From Candidatus Zixiibacteriota bacterium (lineage in GTDB: Bacteria; Zixibacteria; MSB-5A5; GN15; FEB-12), in contig JAJRQO010000027.1 in assembly GCA_024280215.1 (NCBI GenBank), positions 1 through 64,000 of the forward strand: 64,000 nucleotides of DNA, given 5' to 3'. The first letter of the stretch is position 1, and every line of letters starts with the position of its first letter. The position numbers and the translations under genes were made by a program. Below the pieces are notes generated by a model. It searched no databases and was not told where the DNA came from. It saw nothing but the letters and a program-made list of their open reading frames with translations. Below, piece after piece: positions 5,668 through 61,747 of this stretch.

Positions 5668-6130
5668 GGTTCACCTCCTCAAAGGTTTAATTCGCTCTTG
5701 CTTCGTGCTTTCAATTCCGTTGAAAAACAGAAGCCCTTCAATCCGTAAATAAACGAAAGGTGCTTAATTTTTATATTCTAATACTCTTTTTTAAGACGGT
5801 TTGTGTATGTCTCTTGTTTCAGCAATATTAAATTAGAATGATTTAAATTTAAACATTGATAATTTAACAATTGTACTGTCACAAGTTCCCTGTTACTATT
5901 GTAAAGTGTTCCGCAATGAATTACTAATTACTCGCCCTGTCTTAATTATATACATATATACAACGTGATTAGTTCCTATAAAAGGAAAAAATAATAATAC
6001 TTATCGCATCGCAGATAATGCGAACACTGTCTGAAGCCTGTTTTACTGAACACCTCGAAGGGTGGGAGCTCGTCAGGTCTCGGAAAGGCCTGACCTGAAT
6101 CTCTTTTGTAGGGTTCGGTCATGTTTTTAC

Positions 6131-6217
6131 AGGTTCTGATGGGTGCTTTCACGCATTAGTGTGATACACCTGACACACAGTCAGTTCTCAATTCGCTAAA
6201 GCGAATAAGGAACCGAC
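6131..6217. repeat. paired nested-hairpin repeats, family A (second unit 6180-6217)
   Basis: gtcagttctcaattcgctaaagcgaataaggaaccgac preceded by caggttctgatgggtgctttcacgcattagtgtgatacacctgacac. Confidence 0.65.
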
Positions 6218-6463
6218 TAAACAATTTAAGCCACTTTTTCGCTATAACCAAATCAGGCACAACTTGTTACAAGGAATTGGGTTTGTTTTGTCAAATTTGC
6301 GTTTATTTTTCTATCCTCTTCATATTGCAGAAAATGTTCTTCATTTCATTAAACAAGTTAGATTACTATTTTACGATGTTTTTATATACGAATTGACAAA
6401 AAGCAATAATTGTGTATTTTGATGTCAATAATAGATTTATGTTTTTTAAAATCGGAGGAAAAG

Positions 6464-8914: not shown

Positions 8915-8950
8915 ATATTTATAATATTTTTATGTGAGATTACTTGTTAC

Positions 8951-9035
8951 GTCAGTTCCTTATTTTGATTTATCAAAATTGGAACTGATGAACAACTGTC
9001 AGTTCATAATTTGCTAAAGCGAATAAGGAACCGAC
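8951..9035. repeat. inverted pair of nested-hairpin repeats, family A
   Basis: gtcagttccttattttgatttatcaaaattggaactgat and, 8 nt later, gtcagttcataatttgctaaagcgaataaggaaccgac in opposite orientation. Confidence 0.75.
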
Positions 9036-9112
9036 CGAACAAGAAATTATCCAGATTGTCGGGTTTCTCACAATTATATTTTTGGGAATCGGAACCACGA
9101 CTAACATAAACA

Positions 9113-9333: not shown

Positions 9334-9436
9334 TACACTGGGATGACATGTGGGGCATACTTCGATAAGCTCATTATGACTTTGTCGGGTTCTGCATTCG
9401 ACAAGTCGAATCCTTGGAACACCGACCTACAAAGCT

Positions 9437-43045: not shown

Positions 43046-43245
43046 CTAACTGCTTGTTTGACAATAAATTCCATCTTGAGATTTCTACTTTTATATCTCG
43101 ACAATATATGAAGAAATTCCATACTTGGCAAACCATTTAACTGTTTGGCTGGCATCTAATTATTGTAAAGAAAAAGATGAAAATAGTTCCTAAAAAAGAG
43201 ATATTACTTTGAACGTACCATTCGTTTGAGTAGTTCTCCCGTTCT

Positions 43246-43334
43246 GTCGGTTCCTGACCTACAAGGCGGGTTGTGAACTGACAGAAATAGCAAGTGTCAG
43301 GTGTCATCCAACTTTGTCGAAAAGCACCTGACAC
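43246..43334. repeat. pair of family A nested hairpins
   Basis: gtcggttcctgacctacaaggcgggttgtgaactgac and gtgtcaggtgtcatccaactttgtcgaaaagcacctgacac, 11 nt apart. Confidence 0.7.
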
Positions 43335-43379
43335 AACAGAAAGCATATCGCATAAAATAGATTTGGGAACAATCGATTT

Positions 43380-59543: not shown

Positions 59544-60155
59544 TTGCTATCTCTTATATGTGCCGCATTCTTATCTCTTCCTCTTTACCCTCTGAATCCA
59601 ACGACACAAGATACAGTGAGTACAATGAATTTGCATGTGACAGTTGGAGTCAATAGCCGTTCAGCTATGATTTCAGAAAGCCCCAACTTGACACTTAAAT
59701 ATGAATATCTTATACATCATCCGTTTATTATGAGAACTTCTCTTGAGTTTAGTTCTGGAGAGATTAATTCTAAAAATTATCCAAATGGGACTGTGCAACG
59801 ATATAATGTTTCAACTGAAGTTTTATATTATAAAGGAACAAGAAGCACGATGGCATATTTAGGTTTAGGTCTTTTATATGGACGAGGTAATTTTGAGTTA
59901 AATGATAACTTGTATTTTAATAGCCAATTTGTTGATACTCCAAATGAAATTGATTTTGGTGAGGCGTTTGGTTATCGTTTTTTGATGGGACTTCGTTTGA
60001 ACCATACATATTCACTTGAGGTGACCATAACAGAAATCTCACCCTCGTTTATCTATCGTCGTGATTTAGGAATTAATAGATTTACCCGAGAACAGATCGA
60101 CTTCCGTGGCAACAGCGTAAGGGTATCGTTGGGATATTTGTTTAGGTTGATGTGA
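59544..60155 (+). CDS. outer-membrane beta-barrel-like protein
   Basis: Signal-like N-terminus and alternating amphipathic strands ending VRVSLGYLFRLM; TTG start behind AAAGGAG. Confidence 0.6.
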   Translation: MLSLICAAFLSLPLYPLNPTTQDTVSTMNLHVTVGVNSRSAMISESPNLTLKYEYLIHHPFIMRTSLEFSSGEINSKNYPNGTVQRYNVSTEVLYYKGTRSTMAYLGLGLLYGRGNFELNDNLYFNSQFVDTPNEIDFGEAFGYRFLMGLRLNHTYSLEVTITEISPSFIYRRDLGINRFTREQIDFRGNSVRVSLGYLFRLM

Positions 60156-60193
60156 TGAACTCATGTTGGGTTCCGGTTTGCCCGTTTTGATTT

Positions 60194-60217
60194 GTACCGA
60201 CAGGGCATTGCCCTGTC
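60194..60217 (+). repeat. family D palindrome
   Basis: gtaccgacagggcattgccctgtc. Confidence 0.75.
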
Positions 60218-60292
60218 AAACGCCTGTCATTACGAATTCACCTAGACGAATGTGGCAATCTCGTCTTTAAACACTAATTGAAATGTTTCCCT

Positions 60293-60321
60293 ATGTCATT
60301 CCCTTAAAAAAGGGAATCCAG
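60293..60321 (-). repeat. CTGGATTCCC hairpin (family I)
   Basis: atgtcattcccttaaaaaagggaatccag. Confidence 0.7.
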
Positions 60322-60411
60322 AAGAGAAACTCACACCAAGGGGCTTGTTGATAAAGCCTTTATTTTGTGGGCAGGTTTATTTTTATCTCTGAGGTATTTT
60401 TATGAAGTTTC

Positions 60412-60498
60412 GTCAGTTCCTGATTCCGCTTTAGCGGGATTGTGAACTGATGAGATAGTGTCAGGTCTCAATTCATCTTTGATGAATAAGGACCTGAC
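60412..60498. repeat. inverted pair of family A nested hairpins
   Basis: gtcagttcctgattccgctttagcgggattgtgaactgat, 8 nt, then gtcaggtctcaattcatctttgatgaataaggacctgac. Confidence 0.85.
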
Positions 60499-60542
60499 AT
60501 AACGAACAAAAAGATAAGAATCTTACTCCTCTGTTTCATTTT

Positions 60543-60565
60543 GACAGGGCAATGCCCTGTCGCTA
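60543..60565 (-). repeat. GTAG-tagged family D palindrome
   Basis: gacagggcaatgccctgtcgcta(c). Confidence 0.8.
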
Positions 60566-60591
60566 CAGGTTCAGGCATGCCTGAACCCTAC
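60566..60591 (-). repeat. GTAG-tagged palindrome, family E
   Basis: caggttcaggcatgcctgaaccctac; GGTTCAGGCATGCCTGAACC is a perfect 20-bp palindrome. Confidence 0.85.
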
Positions 60592-60601
60592 AAATTCATC
60601 T

Positions 60602-61747
60602 TCACCGTCCATTGGTCGAGTACAAATCCAAGAACTCTTTGCGGAACAAATCAAAGCAATTAGATTCAATTGCCTTGCGAATATTTTGCATCAGCTTTTG
60701 ATAAAAATATGTCGAATGATAGGTCGCAAGAATTATCCCCGTGATTTCTTTTTGATTATACAAATGACGAATATACGATCGAGAATACCGCTGGCAAACT
60801 TTACAATCACAATTCGGGTCGAGCGGTTTATCTTCAAGAATGTGCGTGGCGTTACGATAAACTAAAGGACCCTCCGAGGTAAAGACATAGCCCGTTCGAG
60901 CATTGCGAGTCGGAAGCACGCAATCAAACATATCGACACCATGCGAAACCGCCATCAGTAAATCTTCAGGATAGCCAACCCCCATCAGGTAACGAGGTTT
61001 GTCTTCAGGAAGATATTGAATCGTGTGAGCCAGCATCTCTTCCATCTCATCTTTTGGTTCTCCAACCGAAAGCCCACCGATAGCATTGCCAACAAAATCA
61101 AGCGAGACGATCTGCTCGGCTGATTGAGTTCGCAAATCTTTATAGGTAGAACCCTGCACGATGCCGAACAAATTTATACGATTGTCAGAACCACAGGGGT
61201 TCTGACCTACAAGTTCTTCATGTTTGGTGATACACCGTTTTGCCCAAGCGTAGGTTCTGTCGACACCATGTTGAGCGAGTTTCAAGTCGGCAGGATACTG
61301 CACGCATTGGTCAAACGCCATAATAATATCAGCACCAATAGCATGCTCAATTTCCATAACAGATTCAGGAGTGAACATGTGGTAAGAACCGTCGATGTGC
61401 GACTGAAATTTGACGCCCTCGTCTGTAATTTTAGCAATATCACGCAGAGAAAAAACTTGAAAGCCACCAGAATCGGTAAGCGTCGGTTTGTTCCATCCGT
61501 TAAATTTTGCAAGCCCACCCATCTTTTTGATAACTTCAATCCCTGGACGTAAATAAAGATGATAGGTATTTCCTAAAATAATTTCCGCACCACATTCTTC
61601 CAAATCAGAAGAAATTAGTACCTTGACCGCTCCCGAAGTTCCGACAGGCATAAAGGCAGGTGTTTGGATAGTTCCGTGAGCGGTTTTAACTTCACCCCGT
61701 CGTGCGGAACCATCAGATGTTTTATGTGTGTAAATTTTTTCTTTCAT
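60602..61747 (-). CDS. tgt: tRNA-guanine transglycosylase carrying an in-frame 27-bp repeat insertion
   Basis: PVGTSGAVK, LTDSGGFQVFSL, LFGIVQG, GGLSVGEP, zinc site CDCKVCQRYSRSYIRHL. Confidence 0.96.
   Translation of the reverse strand: MKEKIYTHKTSDGSARRGEVKTAHGTIQTPAFMPVGTSGAVKVLISSDLEECGAEIILGNTYHLYLRPGIEVIKKMGGLAKFNGWNKPTLTDSGGFQVFSLRDIAKITDEGVKFQSHIDGSYHMFTPESVMEIEHAIGADIIMAFDQCVQYPADLKLAQHGVDRTYAWAKRCITKHEELVGQNPCGSDNRINLFGIVQGSTYKDLRTQSAEQIVSLDFVGNAIGGLSVGEPKDEMEEMLAHTIQYLPEDKPRYLMGVGYPEDLLMAVSHGVDMFDCVLPTRNARTGYVFTSEGPLVYRNATHILEDKPLDPNCDCKVCQRYSRSYIRHLYNQKEITGIILATYHSTYFYQKLMQNIRKAIESNCFDLFRKEFLDLYSTNGR
61184..61210 (-). repeat. REP-like 27-mer (family G) inside the tgt coding sequence
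   Basis: gtcagaaccacaggggttctgacctac; exact reverse complement of 61786-61812. Confidence 0.95.

Follow-up and report, generated by a model that had tools for sequence, protein, structure and literature searches.

Convergent hairpin pairs of a Candidatus Zixiibacteriota genome, probable REPINs associated with one clade of RAYT transposases

A 64,000-nt stretch of a Candidatus Zixiibacteriota genome (referred to here as the window) has four pairs of convergent hairpins, 95-100 nt long and all in intergenic DNA. They are very probably REPINs, that is, non-autonomous, gene-less miniature elements of two inverted REP hairpins mobilised by a RAYT (HUH/Y1 type), an identification made because such units are specifically linked to one clade of RAYT, whose gene often lies between convergent units. 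The kind of repeat is thus already known, and this is an unusual branch of it rather than a new RNA; it differs from described REPs in its GTT head, its CTG/TGT mismatch, its heterodimeric ends, the altered guide-reading positions of the linked enzyme, the phylum, and the keeping of repeats where no enzyme is detectable. A literature search, beyond whose reach most subscription papers lay, found no report joining Zixibacteria and repetitive extragenic palindromic sequences, and REP/RAYT biology is now placed in Candidatus Zixiibacteriota.

The hairpin unit and its pairs

The oriented unit (family A) reads 5'-GTT - nn-GTCAG(T/G)TC - CTG - inner stem/loop - TGT - GA(A/C)CTGAC-n'n', in which an unpaired GTT head precedes a 10-bp stem; this opens into a 3x3 internal loop (CTG/TGT) that does not pair, beyond which lies an inner stem of variable sequence. 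A pair consists of one unit, a short spacer and then the reverse complement of another unit. Because the hairpins of every window pair converge, GTT forms the outer end of both arms, and the borders given by the conserved GTT/AAC ends are 6123-6222, 8946-9040, 43241-43337 and 60407-60503. A preliminary description of this DNA had located all four pairs correctly, with borders slightly narrower than the true ones, and had assigned them to a single hairpin family; that assignment holds for 8946-9040 and 60407-60503 but not for 6123-6222 and 43241-43337, each of which has one hairpin of a second type.

The pair at 60407-60503 (copy 4; 97 nt, GTT...AAC), made of two family-A units, sits between convergent genes. 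Its left unit (60407-60453, + strand) has the GTT head, an outer stem TCGTCAGTTC/GAACTGATGA, the internal loop CTG/TGT and an inner stem ATTCCGC/GCGGGAT, and scores 74.6 bits (E 3e-18) with the family-A covariance model R1. The inverted right unit (60456-60504, - strand), whose GTT head appears as AAC at 60501-60503 of the + strand, has the loop CTT/TGA and the inner stem ATTCATC/GATGAAT, and scores 35.3 bits, with added support from folding. The perfect pairing of both stems noted earlier holds for the hairpin at 60460-60498; the asymmetric TCA/AAG loop described with it is an opposite-strand reading of a loop that is usually CTG/TGT. As DNA, the fold of 60405-60505 has a z of -7.6 relative to dinucleotide shuffles. 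Copy 2 (8946-9040, 95 nt) is likewise a convergent family-A pair (51.7 and 40.8 bits), while copy 3 (43241-43337, 97 nt) is a heterodimer of a family-A unit (GTTCT end) and a type-B hairpin (GTTGTGTCAGGTG end), and copy 1 (6123-6222, 100 nt) a heterodimer with a type-B-like hairpin on the left and a family-A unit on the right (- strand, 6176-6223). The type-B hairpin has the form GTGTCAGGTG-CTTT-inner-ATA-CACCTGACAC, with the stem GTGTCAGGTG/CACCTGACAC and an internal loop unlike that of family A, and is poorly detected by R1; further pairs of the same genome also combine a family-A unit with a type-B hairpin. The window pairs are far beyond chance.

The genome to which the window belongs (3.03 Mb in 42 contigs, 96% complete) gave 14 BLAST matches to the 87-nt element and, in a search with R1 (built from ten units, with 50 positions and 17 pairs), 48 matches at E < 1e-3, which represent 45 distinct units, the rest being opposite-strand readings of those sites; the window copies reach E values down to about 1e-18. 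With four weaker units included (49 in all), the adjacent pairs comprise 13 in +/- order, none in -/+ order and one in -/- order, and the pairs that were measured span 93-107 nt from GTT to AAC, most of them 96-98 nt. As is characteristic of REPINs, these are dispersed, mostly intergenic inverted doublets, the four window copies being intergenic. With R1, units were present in 44 of 61 genomes of the same genus, family and order, to a maximum of 49 per genome, and the covariance search that had been proposed as a check of the repeat family therefore found many further copies both in this genome and in its relatives. In an exact-pattern scan of 85,488 GTDB species genomes, a set that may omit the window's own records, all the genomes with the unit were MAGs titled Candidatus Zixiibacteriota or GN15, apart from one Calditrichaeota MAG. 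At L028:5668-7012 (= G029:C59, L128), pairs of two different unit types are arranged in tandem with a period of ~204 nt, much like a BIME array.

An alignment of 115 distinct units from this genome and its relatives (A5), fitted to the model, which favours structure, has standard pairs in 97.9% of its stem cells, with the inner stems 99.3% paired. Both sides have changed at 14 of the 17 pairs; double-change cells number 452, against a shuffled mean of 129, and covariation is scored at 0.613, against 0.182 when shuffled and 0.06-0.10 when the partners are shifted along by one to three columns, an effect too large for the model-fitting of the alignment to explain. The earlier observation that inner stems vary while staying paired is amply borne out by these compensatory changes, and differences between inner stems involve whole blocks (CCGC/GCGG, TTTTGA/TCAAAA, CACT/AGTG). 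Watson-Crick pairing at the positions of the internal loop, by comparison, is found in 0/114, 1/115 and 3/115 units, the facing mismatches being T.G in 114/115 and G.T in 101/115, and each unpaired GTT position is kept in 112-114 of the 115 units (~97%), though this conservation of loop and head is partly expected, since the copies used to build R1, the model that gathered the units, had that sequence. A diverged unit at L150, found by eye, retains the layout. Since the stems covary while the loop mismatch and GTT stay, there is selection to keep the stem, to leave its centre open and, on one strand, to keep the head unpaired.

The linked RAYT clade

A partner gene was sought by comparing the positions of Pfam Y1_Tnp (PF01797) genes with those of the units, each relative having several RAYT-like genes. 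One kind of RAYT proved always to be close to units, and a profile (A4) built from eight proteins of this kind has members at > 200 bits in 17 of the 61 genomes, and one locus per genome was examined (L134-L150). Family-A units adjoin the clade RAYT at all 17 of these loci, 16 by the covariance model and L150 by eye (diverged hairpins with a matching layout), while no unit was detected by the model beside any of 13 less similar RAYT matches from the same search (L151-L163; Fisher p 1e-7); one of these 13, L151, is a truncated gene at a contig end and apparently belongs to the clade as well, its hairpin being diverged. The 17 clade RAYTs are monophyletic in a tree of 60 RAYTs, with a support of 100/100. 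The link to a specific RAYT that characterises REPINs is thus found in the relatives (17/17 vs 0/13) but not in the window's own genome, and no gene class other than this clade recurs inside or beside the hairpin pairs.

A + unit and a - unit bracket the gene at L119, L122, L123, L125, L127 and L150; at several loci, that is, the clade RAYT gene occupies the place taken by the spacer in the gene-less pair. In the same-genus genome G001 the order is pair, unit-gene-unit, pair, with the gene inside a GTTCT + type-B heterodimer and gene-less heterodimers on both sides; copy 3 of the window (43241-43337) and a pair beside this gene (G001:C80:216-315) share 81% identity across about 98 bp. Such loci support an origin of the gene-less pairs from complete transposons. 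All 17 genomes with a clade RAYT carry units (median 23), as do 27 of the 44 without a full-length clade RAYT (median 3), some of which have many (G029 49, G032 30); the p-values for this co-occurrence ignore phylogeny, and so shared ancestry.

All eight clade proteins match both NCBIfam NF047646 (REP-associated tyrosine transposase) and PF01797, and the clade profile matches the E. coli TnpAREP structure 4ER8 with E 2e-11. H60 and H62 (HxH), Y120, N124 and P125 are invariant, with a tyrosine motif YIHxNP, so that the HuH and YxxxN(P) signatures of the Y1 HUH fold family are both present. The residues described as reading GTAG are Q95 and R104 (PMC6006769). In the clade, the residue that follows the conserved W, where E. 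coli has Q95, is not constant (Q, E, T, M, K, M, A, M), the R104 position, in numbering transferred from the 4ER8 alignment, is Y, N, E or I, and the WQ motif is mostly not retained; HuH is preceded by S or T, while all subclasses in the published table have D, N or either at that place (PMC6006769). RAYTs of the window's genome that have WQ...R, L011 and L168 among them, adjoin GTAG-headed hairpins, and the alterations at guide-reading positions in the clade fit a changed guide (GTT). With its altered guide and guide-reading residues, and with a mismatch pattern that is fixed, the clade offers a natural experiment on the choice of DNA by RAYTs.

Presence and absence of copies differ among related genomes. 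The syntenic interval of copy 4 holds a 90% identical pair in the same-genus G003, and none was found there in G002; copy 1 (6123-6222) has a 93% identical counterpart over 94 bp at G002:C4:415-508, and for a copy on contig C6 (L002), the short intergenic stretch that corresponds in G003 has no such pair. When the joined flanks of 12 copies from the window's genome were searched in that genome and in G001-G003 and the regions aligned, no exact empty site was found, because the flanking intergenic DNA is too diverged, and the aligned flanks had no consistent target duplication. By analogy with other RAYT systems the pairs would be mobile. One pair, at L005:1440-1640 (G000:C27:157850-158050), has its insertion site at the end of a > 100-nt dispersed repeat and has a 22-nt near-duplicate (TCAAAATTTAGTCGTTCATTG / TCAAAATTTAGTTATTAATTG) on both sides, unexpected for Y1 transposition; it is the sole copy with such a feature.

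Nature of the pairs and relation to known systems

The REPINs of Pseudomonas fluorescens SBW25 (GI-GIII) are inverted REP doublets for which mobilisation in trans by a RAYT has been proposed (Bertels & Rainey 2011, PMC3116915), and the pairs described here share with them the inverted doublet as the dispersed unit, the intergenic location, tandem clusters and copies beside a specific RAYT; they differ in that the arms are long two-storey hairpins with a GTT head and are often of different types, and in that the window's genome lacks a cognate RAYT. E. coli TnpAREP reads a conserved head, needs a mid-stem mismatch and acts on one strand only (PMC8266576). The Zixiibacteriota units, in which head and mismatch are both strand-asymmetric, resemble the E. 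coli y/z REP-BIME system (PMC8266576; 4ER8) in their conserved unpaired 5' head, mid-stem mismatch, heterodimeric pairs and HUH/Y1 enzyme, but the head is GTT rather than GTAG, the mismatch CTG/TGT rather than AA-GC, and the clade enzyme is variable at the Q95 position and has no equivalent of R104. In REPtrons and TIRtrons, too, the RAYT is bracketed by inverted self-complementary non-GTAG repeats and gene-less copies are dispersed, TIRYT genes being flanked by long, sometimes double-palindromic TIRs (PMC3733652); those belong to a different phylum, and the comparison is one of described layout. There is also a resemblance to the Bacteroidetes TnpA(Y1) subclass 2.6 with its atypical secondary structures (PMC6006769), which shares YIHxNP and REP-like structures without GTAG, though, as compared by motifs, the clade has S/T before HuH where 2.6 has N, and mostly does not keep WQ.

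Taken with the E. coli homology, from which the step from substrate to movement is drawn, the most likely mechanism would be that the GTT-hairpin strand folds when single-stranded, for example on the lagging-strand template, that the RAYT recognises GTT, unpaired at the head, together with the CTG/TGT mismatch of the stem, that its tyrosine cleaves beside the hairpin, and that the DNA lying between two convergent hairpins is moved. The full element would then be the RAYT gene between hairpins, and the window pairs a gene-less form moved in trans. Activity in the window's genome is doubtful, since the cognate RAYT was not found there, and its pairs are probably remnants left by loss of the gene, unless an assembly gap hides the gene. 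A broader proposal, that there is a Zixiibacteriota-wide RAYT/REPIN lineage with a recognition code shifted from GTAG to GTT plus the CTG/TGT mismatch, with unlike left and right ends, and with pairs that persist after enzyme loss through host use, must be considered speculative and rather unlikely.

A different account of the covariation is that the pairs are a structured RNA family (a small RNA, 3'-end stabiliser or terminator-like element) under selection as transcribed RNA. The RNA fold is indeed very stable (-53.9 kcal/mol, z -10.3), the covariation is strong, and the location is intergenic, with 60407-60503 between convergent genes; but the window has no Rfam match over gathering score, no T-run terminator follows the hairpins (scan of 60150-60610), and a fixed inverted doubling with GTT outer ends, linked to one RAYT clade, is unexpected for an RNA gene, whereas an enzyme that reads single-stranded DNA explains the strand-specific unpaired head. 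An RNA family is therefore quite improbable, and a single-stranded DNA substrate for the RAYT is the better explanation of the selection, because the units flank the RAYT gene in relatives; where stable small RNAs or 3' ends had earlier been suggested, the evidence points to RAYT-flanking hairpins instead. A secondary RNA role is known for some REPs, and the pairs may have a secondary transcribed role.

The preliminary description had also left a choice between selection on structure and templated copying. Templated (quasipalindrome) correction at replication forks, acting alone without selection or enzyme, could account for inner stems that differ blockwise and are 99.3% paired, but it should erase the central mismatch, which stays unpaired in nearly all 115 units, and it leaves the dispersal, the conservation of GTT and the RAYT linkage unexplained; it is thus highly improbable as the whole cause, though it may contribute to inner-stem change, and of the two options it is selection on structure that stands. 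A MITE origin, in which the pairs would derive from a conventional terminal-inverted-repeat IS and depend on a different transposase, is very improbable, for although the whole pair is an inverted repeat of ~40 bp that is bounded by GTT...AAC and varies little in size, only genes of the RAYT clade recur inside or beside pairs, each arm is a covarying mismatched hairpin, the hallmark of HUH/Y1 substrates and not of DDE ends, and target duplication is not consistent, the 22-nt near-repeat being confined to one copy.

Several established classes were also considered for these REPIN-like pairs and rejected. The GTAG (GT[AG]G) REP superfamily does not fit units with GTT in 112-114 of 115 at each position, followed by covarying stem bases. 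CGTC REPs have a CGTC tag and no association with a tyrosine transposase gene (PMC3733652), but here the bases before GTC vary (GTTTC, GTTAT, GTTGT, GTTCT) and the units are RAYT-associated. The YIHxNP motif of the clade excludes an IS200/IS605 insertion sequence (TnpA YxxxQ, subclass 1.1); an integron attC (RYYYAAC...GTTRRRY on one hairpin) is excluded by GTT at the 5' foot only, with no partner AAC on the unit's hairpin, and CRISPR-like arrays by the lack of regular spacers.

Other RAYTs and hairpin families of the same genome

The cognate RAYT was not found in the assembly of the window's genome, where the best match to the clade profile (97.8 bits) is a RAYT with a different flanking hairpin family. 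Five RAYTs detected there by Pfam (L011-L015) were rejected as partners, none having family-A units by the covariance model, and so was a sixth (L168), which has a family-A pair nearby, yet has its own GTAGGTCGGGTTC hairpins directly adjoining the gene. At least seven divergent RAYT genes are present in this 3-Mb genome (L011, L012, L013, L014, L015, L168 and L169), most of which adjoin hairpin families of their own (GTAGGTCGAAACCCC, GTGCAAGGCAGACGTCC, CGTACCCCTTGGGG, GTAGGGTTCAGGCATGCC and GTAGGTCGGGTTC). L012 and a sister RAYT clade (L093, L097, L106 and L152-L163) mostly have WKPRFDDLI and [ST]H[IL]H, and also do not have the GTAG-reading residues.

Other repeats are also seen within the window. 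Next to copy 4, positions 60541-60592 contain ACAGGTTCAGGCATGCCTGAACCCTACA and CAGGGCAATGCCCTG, the former being a REP with a GTAG head, similar to those that flank the L015 RAYT. At 9384-9426 (- strand) there is a GTAG-headed two-storey hairpin (GTAGGTCGGTGTTCC...GAACCCGAC) of another REP family, and a similar hairpin is found in G002.
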